Assembly (NCBI GenBank): GCA_025449645.1
Contig: JANWIY010000071.1
Location: 1 to 34,636, forward strand
Reading direction: 5' to 3'
Length of the DNA: 34,636 nt
Source of the DNA: Chitinophagaceae bacterium
Lineage (GTDB): Bacteria; Bacteroidota; Bacteroidia; Chitinophagales; Chitinophagaceae
In this document: positions 11,638 through 34,636 of the stretch, in pieces
Position numbering within the stretch: the first letter of the stretch is position 1
How the letters are laid out: each line of letters opens with the position of its first letter
Program-made: the position numbers and the translations under genes
The notes under the pieces: generated by a model
The model's database searches: none
What the model was told of the DNA's origin: nothing
Seen by the model: only the letters and a program-made list of their open reading frames with translations

Positions 11638-11825
11638 TTATGGGCTATGAGTCTTTCATTTATGGGTTGAGCGTGATGGGTTATGATTTATGAGTTATGC
11701 ACTTCATGAAGCAGGTAAAAATAATTTTGTGAAACCAAATTTCCCAGCCATTTCCAAAAATTTCTTTGTTACATATTTATATATATTCGAAATGGCGCCG
11801 CCAACCCATAACCCATAACCCATAA
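11638..11825. repeat. Inverted heptamer array between pgm and the symporter
   Basis: The spacer holds two facing arrays of a 7-base unit. The right arm is three perfect copies of AACCCAT at 11803-11823, meeting the TAG stop of pgm (read on the minus strand, TAG then TTATGGG repeats). The left arm at 11638-11699 is a longer, degenerate run of TATGGGT-type units, with matches such as TATGGGC, TATGAGT, TATGGGT and GATGGGT, ending at the symporter start codon. About 100 bases lie between the arms. In a pgm-to-symporter read-through RNA, the arms could pair and cover the symporter start. Confidence 0.7.
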
Positions 11826-13466
11826 CTACTGAATCGCCTTGTCCACAATCTCCTGCGCTTCTTCCAGCATTTTTCTCAAATAGTCTTTCCCTTTAAAGCT
11901 CTCCGCATAGATTTTATAAATGTCTTCCGTGCCCGAGGGTCGCGCTGCGAACCATCCATTCTCAGTGATCAGCTTGAGACCACCTATCGAAGCCCCATTG
12001 CCGGGTGCATTGGTGAGAATGGAAATAATCTTATCGCCGGCAAGTGTTTTTTGAGTAATCTGTCCGGGAGAAAGTTTTCCAAGCTTTTCTTTTTGTTGCG
12101 GGGTGGCTTTAGCTTCAATGCGGTCATATATTGACTCTCCGAGTTCCTGTGTTATATCCTGGTAAATTTCACCCGGATCGCGTTTAATGGTGGCCGTGAT
12201 TTCAGCTGCGAGCAGGGCGGGGACAAACCCGTCTTTATCAGTGGTCCAAACAGTTCCATCAAGCCTGGAGCATGTTGCTCCTGCACTTTCCTCCCCACCA
12301 AAACAAAGGGAGTCATCAAAAAGTCCGTCCACGAACCACTTGAAGCCGACGGGAGTTTCATATAATTTCCTGTTGAGTTTTTTTGTAACCCGGTCAATCA
12401 CCTGGCTGCTCACAACTGTTTTGCCCACCGCCTTGGAGTCTTTCCATAAGGGGCGGTGCTGCAAAAGAAAAAATACCATTGCAGACAAATAGTGATTTGC
12501 AGGCATTAAACCCGCACTCTTTGTGACAATTCCATGCCGGTCATGATCCGTATCACAGGCCACCGAGATATCGAAACGGTCCTTTAAACCGATCAGCTGC
12601 TGCATGGCATAAGGAGAAGACGGATCCATCCTGATCTTACCGTCCCAATCCACCGTCATGAAACGGAAAGTCGGATCAACGGTCTTATTCACGACAGTTA
12701 AATTCAATCCATATTTTGATGCTATCGGCTCCCAGTAATGGACACCCGCTCCGCCCAGCGGATCCACACCTATGCTGATTTGCGAATCGCGGATAATATC
12801 CAGGTTGATCACATTGCCAAGATCATTTATATAGTGATTCAGAAAATCATGCCTCTGCGTGCTGCGCACGCGAAGGGCTTTTTCATATGGCATTCTCAAA
12901 ACGCCTTTCATCTTATTCTCCAAAAATTCATTGGCTTTGGATTCTACCCAACTCGTGATGTCAGTGCCCGCAGGCCCCCCATTCGGGGGATTATATTTGA
13001 AACCGCCGTCGTCTGGCGGGTTGTGGGAAGGAGTTATTACAATACCATCGGCCATTCCGTTTTTGCGGTTACGGTTATATGTTAATATCGAGTGTGAAAC
13101 GGCGGGTGTAGGCGTATATTCATCTCCGTTAGCAATCATGAGCTCTACGCCGTTAGCGGCCAGCACTTCAATGGCCGTTGTATATGCCGGCATAGAGAGT
13201 GCATGCGTGTCTATACCAAGGAATAGGGGTCCTTCAATTTTCTGTAGTTTCCGGTAAAGACATATGGCCTGGCTGATCGCCAGTATATGCCATTCATTGA
13301 ATGAACAGATAAAAGAAGAGCCACGATGGCCGGATGTGCCAAATGAAACGCGCTGGGCAGGAACCGATGGATCGGGCCTGTTAGAATAATATGCCGTAAT
13401 CAGTTTGGGAACATTTACCAGGATGGAGGCATCTGCTAATTTACCGGCGGCCGCACTTATTTCCAT
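11826..13466 (-). CDS. pgm: Alpha-D-glucose-phosphate phosphoglucomutase
   Basis: This 546-residue cytoplasmic enzyme is the same length as E. coli Pgm and has its complete motif set. SFGTSGHRGS is at 41-50. The active-site phosphoserine loop is TPSHNP (145-150, Ser147). The metal-binding loop is DTDHDR (305-310), the sugar-binding loop is GGEESAGA (390-397), and the phosphate-binding loop is RPSGTE (509-514). It interconverts glucose 1-phosphate and glucose 6-phosphate, linking glycogen and nucleotide-sugar metabolism with glycolysis. Just upstream of its ATG, reading the minus strand, is a TAACTTTA box that misses the -7 consensus by one base. Its stop codon is fused to the repeat array that precedes the symporter. 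Confidence 0.95.
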   Translation of the reverse strand: MEISAAAGKLADASILVNVPKLITAYYSNRPDPSVPAQRVSFGTSGHRGSSFICSFNEWHILAISQAICLYRKLQKIEGPLFLGIDTHALSMPAYTTAIEVLAANGVELMIANGDEYTPTPAVSHSILTYNRNRKNGMADGIVITPSHNPPDDGGFKYNPPNGGPAGTDITSWVESKANEFLENKMKGVLRMPYEKALRVRSTQRHDFLNHYINDLGNVINLDIIRDSQISIGVDPLGGAGVHYWEPIASKYGLNLTVVNKTVDPTFRFMTVDWDGKIRMDPSSPYAMQQLIGLKDRFDISVACDTDHDRHGIVTKSAGLMPANHYLSAMVFFLLQHRPLWKDSKAVGKTVVSSQVIDRVTKKLNRKLYETPVGFKWFVDGLFDDSLCFGGEESAGATCSRLDGTVWTTDKDGFVPALLAAEITATIKRDPGEIYQDITQELGESIYDRIEAKATPQQKEKLGKLSPGQITQKTLAGDKIISILTNAPGNGASIGGLKLITENGWFAARPSGTEDIYKIYAESFKGKDYLRKMLEEAQEIVDKAIQ

Positions 13467-14880: not shown

Positions 14881-15753
14881 ATGTCCATGTTCATAGCCTC
14901 ATTAAATTCCGGCAGCAATGGAAACTGTTACTATATCGGCAACAGTGAAGAAGCTATTTTCGTGGATGCCGGCCTCTCCTGCGCTGAAACCGAGCAAAGG
15001 ATGGCCCGCCTGGGACTGGATATGAATGCCGTGAAGGGAATCTTTATTTCCCATGAGCATAGCGATCATATCTTCGGCCTTTCCACCCTGGTGCAAAAAT
15101 ATAAAATGCCTGTATACGTAACTGCAGGAACCCTCAGGGAGATCAGAGGAAAAAGGCTGAGGGCTTTTGTCCGCTTGTTTGAAAGCCATCAGCCTGTAAG
15201 CATCGGCGGGCTCACCATAACTCCCTTTCCAAAAAAGCATGATGCCCGTGATCCGCACAGTTTTGTGGTGCGCTGCATGCAGACCACCGTGGGAATTTTT
15301 ACAGATATCGGTCAGATCTGCGAACAGGTTGTCTGTTATTTCCGCCAATGCCATGCAGCTTTTCTGGAGGCCAATTATGACGAAGAAATGTTGCAGCAGG
15401 GCAGATATCCTCATTTCCTGAAAAACAGGATCCGGGGCGGCCAGGGACATCTGTCCAATCACCAGGCCTTTGAACTTTTTACCAGCCACCGGCCCGATTT
15501 TATGACCCACCTGCTTTTGTCGCACCTCTCGAAAGAGAATAATTCACCCGAATTGTTAATGGCCCTGTTTAATCATCATAAGACCGATACTGAAGTAATT
15601 ATTGCTTCCCGCTATCAGGAGAGCCAGGTATATCCGGTTTCCTTCCAGCCCCCCACAAAAACTTTTTTGAGTCCCGGGGAAATAATCAATGAAATGCCTT
15701 TAAAGAAAAAAGCAAATGTAAAATCCGAACTCCGGCAATTGAGTTTGTTTTAA
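14881..15753 (+). CDS. MBL-fold metallo-hydrolase, WalJ/YycJ-like
   Basis: This 290-residue cytoplasmic protein has the metallo-beta-lactamase fold, with metal motif HxHxDH at His58, His60, Asp62 and His63 (ISHEHSDHIFGL). The N-terminal SLNSGSNGNCYYIG segment with VDAGLSC is the pattern of the WalJ/YycJ branch. These enzymes are usually phosphodiesterase or nuclease-like and are often linked to DNA metabolism in firmicutes. Later metal-ligand candidates are His and Asp in KKHDARDPHSFVV and HLLLSHLSKENN. The start ATG follows a CAGATG leader and lies 32 bases from the divergent gene start. The stop is 16 bases from the convergent CBU_0592-type gene. Confidence 0.87.
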   Translation: MSMFIASLNSGSNGNCYYIGNSEEAIFVDAGLSCAETEQRMARLGLDMNAVKGIFISHEHSDHIFGLSTLVQKYKMPVYVTAGTLREIRGKRLRAFVRLFESHQPVSIGGLTITPFPKKHDARDPHSFVVRCMQTTVGIFTDIGQICEQVVCYFRQCHAAFLEANYDEEMLQQGRYPHFLKNRIRGGQGHLSNHQAFELFTSHRPDFMTHLLLSHLSKENNSPELLMALFNHHKTDTEVIIASRYQESQVYPVSFQPPTKTFLSPGEIINEMPLKKKANVKSELRQLSLF

Positions 15754-15769
15754 CGGCTATGGATAGGGG

Positions 15770-16045
15770 CTAATCCGGCTCTTCCATTGGTTGGGAAATG
15801 GCCCTCTGCATACGGATAAGAATTTTCACGATAGCGACAACAGACAAGACCGTCCATACGCCCTCGAGAATAACGAAAGGAAAATAGGGAATCAGATAGC
15901 TGGCAATACAGGCGATACCGGCGCCTGCGAAATTCAGCAGGCCGTAAATCAGGCTGTCCGTCCGGATAATCTTCAGCAGGTTCAGAACAAAAGCAATCAG
16001 GAGAATGCTCACGCCAAAACTGCCAAGGGCTTCTGAAAAATTCAT
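15770..16045 (-). CDS. CBU_0592-type small membrane protein
   Basis: This 91-residue protein has three hydrophobic segments: FGVSILLIAFVLNLL (about 10-24), LIYGLLNFAGAGIACIASYLI, and FVILEGVWTVLSVVAIVKIL. The order, with the GLLNFAGAG core and the FPFVILEGVWT turn, matches the CBU_0592-like domain family of short membrane proteins. No function is established for the family. The C-terminal tail is polar (RAISQPMEEPD). It is convergent with the metallo-hydrolase gene. Upstream of its ATG lies a long inverted heptamer repeat. Confidence 0.68.
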   Translation of the reverse strand: MNFSEALGSFGVSILLIAFVLNLLKIIRTDSLIYGLLNFAGAGIACIASYLIPYFPFVILEGVWTVLSVVAIVKILIRMQRAISQPMEEPD

Positions 16046-16097
16046 GTAGAAAAATTGGAAAAGGTTTATGCCTGTTTACAGGAGGGTATGGAAAGTA

Positions 16098-16190
16098 GTG
16101 GTGGATGGTATATGGTGGATGGTAGATGGATTTCAGTTGTAAATTCGCACCTGCTGTCCATATACGATCCACCATATACCATCCACCATC
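16098..16190. repeat. Long inverted repeat with 7-base period
   Basis: The left arm at 16098-16130 and the right arm at 16157-16189 are 33 bases each and complementary at 30 of 33 positions, with a 26-base loop. Each arm is built from degenerate 7-base units (TGGTGGA, TGGTATA, TGGTGGA, TGGTAGA on the left). It lies in the spacer upstream of the minus-strand CBU_0592-type gene. The unit differs from those of the other arrays in the window, but the period and the facing-arm layout are the same. Confidence 0.85.
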
Positions 16191-16270
16191 AAAGGATCCC
16201 GGACCGACAAAAGTAGGGAAACTTGCCCTGGTTCCCGGCCTGCAGCTGATTTTTTTTCACTATCCCCAGG

Positions 16271-16300
16271 CAAACAAAGCCTCCCTGGGAACAGGGAGGC
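16271..16300 (-). terminator. Strong GC hairpin, terminator-like on the minus strand
   Basis: GCCTCCCTG (16279-16287) and CAGGGAGGC (16292-16300) form a perfect 9-bp stem closing a 4-base loop. On the minus strand it is followed by TTTGTTTG, a short T-rich tail. On the plus strand no T run follows. No recognised gene feeds it from the minus side; the only transcript it could end is an unannotated one from the 16301-16570 region. Confidence 0.5.
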
Positions 16301-16573
16301 CGTTAACGATTGCTAGTCCACGAGAAAATCAAATTAAACTGCTTTTTTACTTTCGAATCAATCAGGATAAGGTAATGGTCATGGTTCTGGGTGTAGGGCC
16401 TGAGAACAAACTTACGCTGTATGGAACACCCTCTACAAGGGGGGAAAGCTCGATTCTGACCCGGGTATTTTTCCCGGTGCCGGGGGGTAGAATGCCCCTT
16501 TCTCAGACCAAATAGTATACGGAAAGCCGATTCTCCGTATTTTAAAGTCATAATTAACTATTAAACTGATCAT
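16301..16573 (-). other. Gene-free region with hairpin potential; candidate structured RNA
   Basis: I find no convincing protein here. Read on the minus strand it has several local pairings: ATACGGA/TCCGTAT (16517-16523 with 16534-16540), a CCGGG/CCCGG hairpin, GGGG/CCCC around the 16490s, and GGGTGT/ACACCC. It ends at the strong hairpin plus T-rich tail at 16271-16300. A noncoding RNA of about 250 bases is possible, but I cannot match it to any known class. It could equally be the 5' leader region of the signalling operon that starts at 16574. An open frame at 16303-16551 (minus) has no recognisable features and I do not call it. Confidence 0.25.
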
Positions 16574-17829: not shown

Positions 17830-18590
17830 TTTTCACCATTGTTGCAGTCATCATCATACTGCTTTTTCTGGGCGTATTGTTCCTGGTGATGCTGTTCTAT
17901 TATAACAATAAAAAAGGGCAAATGACTAAGGAACAGCAGCTCATGAAAGCAACTTTTGAGAAGCAATTACTCGAATCCAAGCTGGAAATACAGGAACAGA
18001 CTTTCGATATGATCAGCCAGGAGATCCACGACAATGTCGGCCAGATCCTGAGCCTTGCCAAAGTGCAACTCGGCATTATGGAGCAGCGTCATATTATTGA
18101 GGGGGATCTCGTAAGTAATGTAAAAGAAAGTATCAGTCTGGCGATGACCGAATTGCGCGATATTGCCAAGAGCCTGAGCAGCGAACGTCTTCAATTGCTC
18201 AGCCTGCCTGAAAGTATCGCCCAGGAAATCAAAAGGATCAACCGCAGTGGTATCCTTAAGGTAACGGCTAGTGTAGAGGGTGTGGAGAAAAATGTGCCCG
18301 ATCACCAAAAACTCATTGCTTTCCGGATGGTACAGGAGGGATTTCAAAATATCATCAAACATGCAGGTGCCTCCGAAGTGAAGGTTTCCATCCGTTATCT
18401 GGAAGAATGGATACATATATCGATCTTTGACAATGGAACCGGATTTAATCCCGAAAATGAATTGAAGAAAAGAGAAGGGCTGGGCCTGCAGAATATTCTC
18501 CGGCGTGCAAGTCTTATTGGTGGCAAAGCAAATATCATCAGCAAGCCCGGGGAAGGAACAACACTGGAAATACAAATTGCTTATGCGTGA
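17805..18590 (+). CDS. Sensor histidine kinase, HisKA_3 (NarX/LiaS type), single TM
   Basis: This 261-residue protein has one transmembrane helix (VVFTIVAVIIILLFLGVLFLVMLFYY, about 8-33) and no extracytoplasmic domain. A coiled coil (TKEQQLMKATFEKQLLESKLEIQ) leads to the HisKA_3 dimerisation domain, with phospho-acceptor His75 in QEIHDNVGQ. The HATPase domain has Asn182 in VQEGFQNIIKHA, DNGTGF (209-214) and GLGLQN (225-230). With hardly any residues outside the membrane, it must receive its signal from the membrane or a partner. Its start overlaps the membrane protein gene by 25 bases, and its end overlaps the response regulator gene by 8 bases. Confidence 0.9.
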   Translation: MQDTRDQVVFTIVAVIIILLFLGVLFLVMLFYYNNKKGQMTKEQQLMKATFEKQLLESKLEIQEQTFDMISQEIHDNVGQILSLAKVQLGIMEQRHIIEGDLVSNVKESISLAMTELRDIAKSLSSERLQLLSLPESIAQEIKRINRSGILKVTASVEGVEKNVPDHQKLIAFRMVQEGFQNIIKHAGASEVKVSIRYLEEWIHISIFDNGTGFNPENELKKREGLGLQNILRRASLIGGKANIISKPGEGTTLEIQIAYA

Positions 18591-19236
18591 AGAGCGCTCC
18601 ATAACGATAGTGGATGATCATACCATGTTCCGCAAAGGGCTAGCCGTGCTCATCAATTTATTTCCATCTTACCGCGTACTGATGGATGTTGGCAATGGCA
18701 GGGAGTTCATAGAACAGCTTGTTCCCGATCAGCTTCCCGACATTGTATTGCTGGATATCCATATGCCGGTGATGGACGGTTATGCAACTGCAGCGTGGCT
18801 CCGTAAGCATTATCCGCAGATCCGCGTGATGGCACTGAGCACGATGGACTCCGACGTAGCCATTATTAAAATGATCCATCAGGGGGCGCGGGGATATATT
18901 TTAAAGGATGCGGACCCCAAAGAGCTTCAGCTTGCCTTTGATGAAATTATTGACAAAGGATATTATTACAATGAAATCCTCACCCGCAAAGTAATGCAAT
19001 CCATCCACCAGGGCGGAAGTGAATCCATTTCAGGGTTTGCTAAACTCACTGACCGCGAACTGGAATTCCTGCAACACGCCTGCAGTGAAAAAAATTATCA
19101 GCAGATAGCAAGGGAAATGTTTCTCAGTGAACGAACCGTTGACGGATACCGCGAGTCCCTCTTCAAGAAATTCAACGTAAGCAATCGCGTGGGTTTGGTG
19201 CTTTATGCGATTAAGAATCAATTGGTGAATTTGTAA
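18583..19236 (+). CDS. LuxR/NarL-family response regulator
   Basis: From the ATG at 18583 this is a 217-residue protein (MREERSITIVDDHTMFRKG). The receiver domain has the acidic pair Asp11/Asp12, phospho-acceptor Asp58 in LLDIHMPVMDG, and the conserved Lys in YILKDADP. The C-terminal LuxR-type helix-turn-helix covers about 150-217 (LTDRELEFLQHAC, then IAREMFLSERTVDGYRESLFKKFNV). It is the natural partner of the overlapping HisKA_3 kinase. The frame also runs upstream to an ATG at 18505, but that would add 26 residues antisense to no known domain and overlap the kinase by 86 bases, so I reject it. The heptamer array starts at its TAA stop. Confidence 0.93.
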   Translation: MREERSITIVDDHTMFRKGLAVLINLFPSYRVLMDVGNGREFIEQLVPDQLPDIVLLDIHMPVMDGYATAAWLRKHYPQIRVMALSTMDSDVAIIKMIHQGARGYILKDADPKELQLAFDEIIDKGYYYNEILTRKVMQSIHQGGSESISGFAKLTDRELEFLQHACSEKNYQQIAREMFLSERTVDGYRESLFKKFNVSNRVGLVLYAIKNQLVNL

Positions 19237-19331
19237 AGAAAGTAAAAAGTAAAAAGTAAAAATGGATGCTGATATTGTATCCTTTTGAATGAAGAGCTCC
19301 ACTTTTTACTTTTTACTTTTTACTTTTTAAT
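19234..19331. repeat. Inverted heptamer array (TAAAAAG type) starting at a stop codon
   Basis: Directly from the response regulator TAA (19234-19236) runs AAGAAAG then TAAAAAG-type units to 19265. A matching inverted arm of ACTTTTT units runs at 19298-19330. The arms are nearly fully complementary over about 30 bases, including the inner TGGA/TCCA, and enclose about 32 bases. TAA triplets begin at 19234, 19243, 19250 and 19257. The last three fall in three different frames, so read-through in any frame would be stopped. The right arm ends about 20 bases before the aldehyde dehydrogenase ATG. Confidence 0.85.
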
Positions 19332-19351
19332 TTATTCGTTAAATTCACTCA

Positions 19352-24421: not shown

Positions 24422-24470
24422 ATCAAGGATAAGTTTTTAAAAGATCCCCCCTTCGCTTCGGAGGACGAAG

Positions 24471-24494
24471 CCATAACTCATAACCCATAACCCC
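24471..24494. repeat. Single-armed CATAACC heptamer array after a stop codon
   Basis: CATAACT, CATAACC and CATAACC run in tandem next to the TGA of the ThuA/PQQ/cytochrome gene; on the minus strand this reads TGA then GGGTTAT-type units. The same unit as the array at 11803-11823 is used. Only one arm is visible; a short CTTCG/CGAAG inverted pair follows, before the next gene start at 24421. Confidence 0.6.
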
Positions 24495-34615: not shown

Positions 34616-34636
34616 TTAAAAAGTAAAAATTAAAAA
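34613..34636. repeat. Start of a TAAAAAG-type heptamer array
   Basis: From the TAA stop of the 53-residue gene, TAATTAAAAAGTAAAAATTAA runs to the window end. TAA triplets start at 34613, 34617, 34624 and 34631; the last three are 7 bases apart and cover all three frames. The unit matches the array at 19234. The facing arm, if any, is beyond the window. Confidence 0.6.

Follow-up and report, generated by a model that had tools for sequence, protein, structure and literature searches.

What kind of element places a stop codon in every reading frame behind one gene and then returns as its own complement before the next gene begins? The question is raised by a spacer in the window analyzed here, a stretch of 34,636 nucleotides that constitutes contig C71 of a Chitinophagaceae draft genome (G000; 3.59 Mb, 86% complete, 190 contigs). 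The spacer is flanked by a response regulator gene upstream and an aldehyde dehydrogenase gene (PF00171; start 19352) downstream, and holds the following features:

19234-19236, plus strand: stop codon TAA of the response regulator gene (ORF 18505-19236), read directly; the product carries PF00072 and PF00196
19239-19262, plus strand: 5' arm, (AAAAAGT)n, with TAA in three frames (direct reading, Tandem Repeats Finder, inverted-repeat search)
19263-19302, no strand: loop or core of 40 bases (inverted-repeat search, RNA fold)
19303-19326, plus strand: 3' arm, perfect complement of the 5' arm (Tandem Repeats Finder, inverted-repeat search)

Tandem Repeats Finder described the 5' arm as (AAAGTAA)3.4 at 19239-19262 (100% match) and the 3' side as (ACTTTTT)4.7 at 19301-19333 (96% match), the tandem array on that side exceeding the paired arm. 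The best ungapped inverted repeat joined 19239-19262 to 19303-19326, with 24 bases paired and a loop of 40, and because the core starts with TGGA and finishes with TCCAC, the stem continues inward. RNA spanning 19234-19351 folded at -36.1 kcal/mol compared with -14.8 ± 2.6 for shuffles (z -8.2), a value equaled by none of 200 shuffles, which bears out the long RNA hairpin proposed in the first-pass annotation. TAA was also found in each frame, as claimed there, with triplets at 19243, 19250, and 19257 lying at offsets 9, 16, and 23 from the gene stop. The same annotation took the gene stop to be the first of the heptad row; this is incorrect, as the response regulator's own stop lies 9, not 7, bases ahead of the first array TAA and is two bases out of register. 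A known RNA family was rejected, since an Rfam scan of the window at the gathering score gave no family match.

The inverted heptamer array was thus correctly recognized, with arms that pair perfectly, but it is not a one-off: the 19-mer AAAAAGTAAAAAGTAAAAA occurs 91 times in the G000 genome and its reversed control 0 times. We fetched 36 stretches around 19-mer matches and, with the window, counted 38 AAAAAGT array loci. The co-occurrence of a far inverted arm, which had been suggested as a check, was partial, with the arm detected at 24 of the 38 loci and undetected at 14. By context, 20 loci were codirectional, 6 convergent, and 4 divergent, 4 lay inside a predicted ORF and 4 at an edge, a distribution similar to the spacer background (108 codirectional, 29 convergent, 41 divergent). 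That background derives from a G000 sample of 420 kb (the window plus 20 stretches) with 178 spacers, in which a simple script took long ORFs as genes. A spacer was scored as occupied when the script found in it an array or palindrome of the 7- or 8-base type. On contigs chosen from those already known to carry AAAAAGT arrays, this held for 30 of 178 spacers (21 with mirrored tandem units, 8 with tandem units alone, 1 with an inverted repeat alone), compared with 0.4 in shuffles. Only 5 of 2394 gene-body tiles were occupied. As in heptameric intergenic SSRs, units run head to tail in spacers and are rare inside genes, 8-base units being counted too. Inverted repeats scoring at least 16 numbered 22 in the 420 kb and 0 in one shuffled copy per stretch; of these, 10 reached the period score set by the script, and on inspection by eye each of the 22 consists of more or less degenerate 7- or 8-base units. 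Four spellings recur in G000, namely AAAAAGT, GTTGAYG (variants GTAGATG and GTGGATG), TTATGRR, and the octad ARTNTGRR. The array behind the response regulator gene is one member of a class of hairpins scattered among spacers, with arms of mirrored tandem 7- or 8-base units.

The window itself holds two further arrays:

16099-16188, no strand: second mirrored heptad hairpin, units GGTGGAT/GGTATAT/GGTAGAT, core TTTCAGTTGTAAATTCGCACCTGCTG (repeat search, fold)
11676-11823, no strand: third, weaker array, an ATGGGTT/ATGAGTT arm plus an (AACCCAT)3.4 arm (inverted score 12)

The hairpin at 16099-16188 (RNA fold z -9.5) overlaps short predicted ORFs at 15750-16175 (minus strand) and 16126-16512 (plus strand; no match in a Pfam search) and was therefore left out of the spacer counts. 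The third array sits in the spacer after a phosphoglucomutase-family gene (11826-13466, minus strand) and, its inverted score of 12 being below the cut of 13, was treated as tandem only in the ortholog test. CCATAAC heptads at 24471-24493, in the 24422-24494 spacer, had no detected inverted arm, and the counterpart of that spacer in the relative G007 carries an unrelated 14-bp palindrome. Heptad arrays seem to break assemblies: the contig end at 34617-34636 of the window falls inside another TAAAAAG array, and contigs C173 of G000 and C87 of the relative G019 begin inside a TAAAAAG-type array.

The 19-mer AAAAAGTAAAAAGTAAAAA was present in 8 of 58 genomes including G000, all within the genus, with 61 occurrences in G019, 29 in G025, and 1 to 5 in each of five others; two further genomes of the 58 each gave a single match to the reversed control. 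Spacer arrays were found neither in 40-kb samples of G002, G006, G010, and G028 nor in the G003 sample. Spacer samples of G007 and G017 include stretches fetched by orthology.

For comparison across species, 48 spacers of five G000 regions were examined, of which 37 had at least one counterpart and 11 had none in the relatives. Occupied spacers were 14/48 in G000, 7/26 in G019, 11/34 in G007, 4/17 in G005, 2/23 in G015, 6/22 in G017, 0/6 in G003 (searched in three of the five regions only), and 2/10 in G025; the four regions other than the window each had at least one known element beforehand, and G000 occupancy there is consequently raised. Occupancy was permuted within species, keeping each species' own rate, over 137 gap-species cells after exclusion of spacers longer than 620 or shorter than 40 bases; G019, being too close, and G003, whose 6 spacers were all empty, did not enter the permutation, and six species remained. 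Co-occupied species pairs numbered 32 compared with 14.4 expected (p <= 0.0005), 15 of the 32 coming from one spacer. With spacers of at least 70 bases there were 31 pairs compared with 15.5 expected (p <= 0.0002). Removal of the richest spacer left 17 pairs compared with 9.6 (p <= 0.014), or 16 compared with 10.3 (p <= 0.034) for spacers of at least 70 bases, and the two last-added regions alone gave 4 compared with 1.6 (p <= 0.07). The repeat period was identical in 31 of the 32 co-occupied pairs compared with 17.6 expected (p 0.0002), a figure to be read with the caveats that 15 pairs are one spacer and that pairs with one inherited unit share the period regardless. In the first three regions, 19 of 27 co-occupied pairs had no exact 7-mer common to their arms, some of these being near variants (e.g., GTTGATG in G000 and GTTGACG in G007). 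At the level of sequence, these comparisons show that site, period, and mirror pairing recur between species and that the unit sequence often differs.

The gap between the response regulator and aldehyde dehydrogenase genes carries AAAAAGT in G000 and GTTGACC units (GTTGACCGTTGGCGGTTGAC and its complement) in G007. In the phosphoglucomutase-family spacer at 11.6 kb the units are ATGGGTT in G000, GGTTGAC in G007, AAAGCCC in G005, and AATTATT in G017; by eye, G015 retains AAAGCCT remnants, G025 has a plain palindrome without heptads, and G003 has nothing similar. Gap 8 of locus L097 likewise holds AAAAAGT and GGATATG at one site. In six species, gap 0 of L097 holds octads in mirror order, written as AATTTGAA, AGTCTGGA, AATTTGGG, or AGTATGGG, with octads lacking a second arm in G019 and none in G003; since these octads all fit ARTNTGRR, gradual divergence from a single ancestral unit and replacement are equally likely there. 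In one G015 spacer (L156, G015:C182; orthologous to L097 8230-8328), TTATGAG units abut GCGTTAA units directly, a junction that could be an intermediate of unit replacement. Among the matches listed, the GTTGAYG spelling by eye has mainly T in G019 and mainly C in G015. An unusually long palindrome with 51-base arms, a score of 45, and irregular units was found in G005 (L168, G005:C89; orthologous to L092 4118-4189).

Anchoring to the stop codon, as proposed in the first-pass annotation, proved weak. In G000 codirectional spacers (n = 20), elements lay a median of 15.5 bases from the upstream stop and 32 from the downstream start, 15 of them nearer the stop, but in relatives (n = 18) the medians were 5.5 and 11, with 9 nearer the stop and 1 tie, i.e., 9 of 17 untied. 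Pooled, 24 of 37 untied codirectional elements were closer to the stop than to the start (p 0.10; Wilcoxon p 0.19). Attraction to stop codons was rejected on this nonsignificant pooled result and on the likeness of AAAAAGT contexts to the spacer background; "spacer element" is the safer label. Divergent spacers were depleted of elements in G000 (2/41 compared with 28/137 elsewhere, p 0.018), a depletion not visible in relatives, where 4 of 11 were occupied in G007 and 3 of 12 in G017.

Within hairpins, the two arms agree with each other better than neighboring units do. Across 42 G000 hairpins with unlike units, arm complementarity was 0.940 compared with a neighboring-unit identity of 0.838, and was the higher of the two in 34 of 42 (p 4e-6); permuting unit order lowered arm pairing from 0.935 to 0.866, although the element search takes the best register and part of this cross-arm complementarity is therefore selection. 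Where a unit is altered in one arm, the matching change thus tends to appear in the other, the outcome that fold-back copying or compensation would give. The unit strand in the 5' arm was the same in all 53 periodic hairpins of G000; 27 of these are purposely fetched AAAAAGT hairpins and the whole set represents four unit families, hence not 53 independent cases.

Three mechanisms may be considered: a kept structure, a mobile palindrome, and a mutational by-product. Our preferred reading, quite possible if short of probable, is that slippage and fold-back copying generate a spacer hairpin that is maintained as a barrier in the RNA at transcript ends, whatever its sequence. Arrays would lengthen and shorten by replication slippage, and fold-back (template-switch) copying would remake one arm on the template of the other, preserving arm complementarity while units drift. 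Less surely, any long intergenic stem might be useful and the hairpin might then be retained irrespective of its letters, with termination, shielding from 3' exonucleases, and insulation from the neighboring gene as proposed roles. The AAAAAGT flavor, with its U-rich 3' arm, could give a two-way terminator. Its T runs lie within the 3' arm itself, and the other flavors have no T run after the stem (mean T in the 10 nt after the stem: AAAAAGT 3.9, GTTGAYG 3.2, octamers 2.4). A canonical intrinsic terminator inside AAAAAGT hairpins was not supported, as the cores of 27 such elements folded only slightly more stably than their shuffles (mean z -0.47, with 6 under -1). The elements at 16.1 kb and in gap 4 of locus L105 appear dispensable, given that G019 lacks both.

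Alternatively, the unit groups might be small nonautonomous elements, copied by a transposase as REP- or MITE-like mobile palindromes; spacers would then be occupied because insertions elsewhere were lost, and co-occupancy would mark favored landing places. REP/REPIN sequences are dispersed intergenic palindromes with RAYT transposases. The 16.1 kb element had dozens of matches of ~73-87% in G019 and G007 among the matches listed (a palindrome matches on both strands) and is absent from its orthologous place in both genomes. The core CAGGTGCGAATTC, with at most one mismatch, occurred 30 times in G000, 23 in G019, and 35 in G007, compared with 1, 0, and 3 occurrences of its reversed control. 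At L105 gap 4, G019 is without ~200 bases of G000, which are flanked on both sides by GTGA, with one ATGA in G019. Together, the 16.1 kb matches and L105 gap 4 favor some copying to new sites, as judged from sequence comparison. Against a mobile origin, G000 differs from REP/REPIN carriers in having arms of tandem heptads or octads and no Y1 (RAYT) transposase match, nor was one found in G007, G019, G005, G015, G017, or G003. RAYT mobilization was rejected for G000 on this basis; PF01797 matches were 0 in both G000 (86% complete) and G007 (99% complete), and 3 of 10 genomes searched were positive, two matches occurring in G025, where arrays are present, and some in G002 and G028. Related loops were few: 10 of 47 grouped, into clusters of 5, 3, and 2 (the one of 3 being partly repeat units), and loop homology was set aside as proof of copying. 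Target duplication was limited to the possible GTGA at one site, with none clear at others among the few sites examined. The single arm at L087 gap 1 in G019, where G000 has a full hairpin, and the approximately one unit that G019 holds at L097 gap 6 also fit in-place growth or decay. On balance, we consider a mobile origin possible but doubtful. In G028, 60-residue open frames on contigs C2, C7, and C18 (L186, L188, and L190) match positions 1-46 of the Y1 transposase model.

It is rather unlikely, on present evidence, that these are sequence-free conserved elements, in which selection or dedicated copying would preserve where the hairpins sit, their period of 7 or 8 bases, and their mirror pairing, and units would be rewritten into species dialects across many loci, with a fixed strand order and a tendency to all-frame stops on the 5' arm.

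We also regard as unlikely a purely mutational product, in which slippage and fold-back copying act in tolerant spacers and the result is functionless. Unit turnover, lineage restriction, and the occurrence of elements in divergent spacers of relatives are consistent with such an origin, and slippage has been hypothesized to cause the bacterial heptamer excess in the sections of PMC4692102 drawn on here. However, co-occupied spacers would require mutational hot spots or old inheritance, and neither the depletion of divergent spacers in G000 nor the single strand order of all 53 hairpins is readily accommodated.

The frame-proof translational stop of the first-pass annotation survives as a pattern and not as a probable role. 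Stops in all frames occurred in 35 of 53 5' arms (24 of 27 with AAAAAGT, 11 of 26 with other units) compared with 4 of 53 3' arms and 21% of shuffled 5' arms, which, with the fixed strand order and the 15 of 20 G000 codirectional elements nearer the stop, would suit a stop array that keeps ribosomes out of the stem. Such a putative role is nevertheless highly improbable, as four unit families underlie the counts, the gene already owns a stop, the AGTATGGG octads of G017 contain no stop codon, pooled stop attraction is nonsignificant, and divergent spacers of relatives are occupied.

The first-pass annotation knew of no named repeat family with this design, a statement that was half right. Heptamer arrays with inverted partners have been published for Xanthomonas, and heptad-built stems for the trnL gene of Nostoc. 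According to the sections of PMC4692102 used here, GGGAATC in Xanthomonas and GGGGA(C/T)T in Nostoc are 7-base tandem units dispersed in spacers; the Xanthomonas repeats lie nearer the upstream gene, are under-represented between divergent genes, and form inverted pairs (70 in one genome, 75 in another), most of which lie between the same genes in two species and vary in length and sequence. Being dispersed spacer heptamers with inverted partners, as in G000, these are the nearest genome-wide precedent. In contrast to G000, which has several units per genome, that paper follows a single G-rich, quadruplex-forming unit, and neither unit replacement nor octads are reported in those sections. By reading alone, GGG is absent from AAAAAGT and GTTGAYG and present in the TTATGGG variant, up to three in a row on the minus strand at 11803-11826.

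The nearest precedent for unit swapping under a kept structure is the P6b stem of the Nostoc trnL(UAA) group I intron, which is always built on a 7-base repeat of one of two motif classes; replacement of one class by the other has happened repeatedly, with little change in structure (PMC4476775, in part). P6b is one locus inside an intron, whereas the G000 elements occupy many spacers, and no Rfam family, group I introns included, was matched in the window at the gathering score. Direct repeats of the heptamer TAACTGA are known from Beggiatoaceae, Cyanobacteria, and five Bacteroidetes and likewise form dispersed intergenic arrays; some Bacteroidetes have other heptamers as well (PMC4679880, in part). 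In the portion of that paper used here, they are direct arrays, with 169 sets plus one indirect repeat in the main genome, most of them just before start codons, whereas G000 has other units, mirror order, and 24 of 37 pooled elements nearer the upstream stop. The BrickBuilt MITE of Porphyromonas gingivalis is an intergenic tandem repeat inside an inverted-repeat element and differs, as far as the relevant part of PMC4596501 describes it, in its 23-base unit, its one direct array between leader and tail parts, and its 19 copies.

Among the results listed in a search of the open-access literature, there was no description of mirrored heptad arrays in Chitinophagaceae, and within those results the combination of many spacers, several units, retained mirror pairing, and a unit differing between species appears to be new. 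Conservation is usually sought in sequence, while here site, period, and pairing recur with differing letters; because the letters often differ between species, alignment-based annotation would miss these hairpins. Should they act at transcript ends, a structure invisible to motif searches would set a considerable fraction of the group's 3' ends. If they have no such role, they would be a natural record of slippage and fold-back copying.

To gauge how far the design extends, the exact mirrored AAAAAGT pattern was sought in 84,980 named genomes, a scan that near relatives of G000 may lie outside of, and 12 stretches were recovered. By title, 5 belonged to Chitinophagaceae bacterium isolate palsa_953, 5 to an uncultured Acidobacteria MAG, 1 to a Saprospiraceae MAG, and 1 to the cyanobacterium Trichocoleus sp. 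FACHB-40; 9 of the 12 were read. Seven stretches with Acidobacteria, Saprospiraceae, or Trichocoleus titles had no blastn match longer than 150 bases to other fetched DNA. As far as titles can be trusted, the mirrored AAAAAGT design thus occurs in distant lineages, at loci L047, L048, L051, L052, and L055 (Acidobacteria-titled MAG), L054 (Trichocoleus), and L056 (Saprospiraceae). By eye, the core of L048 resembles a plain hairpin-plus-T-run terminator.
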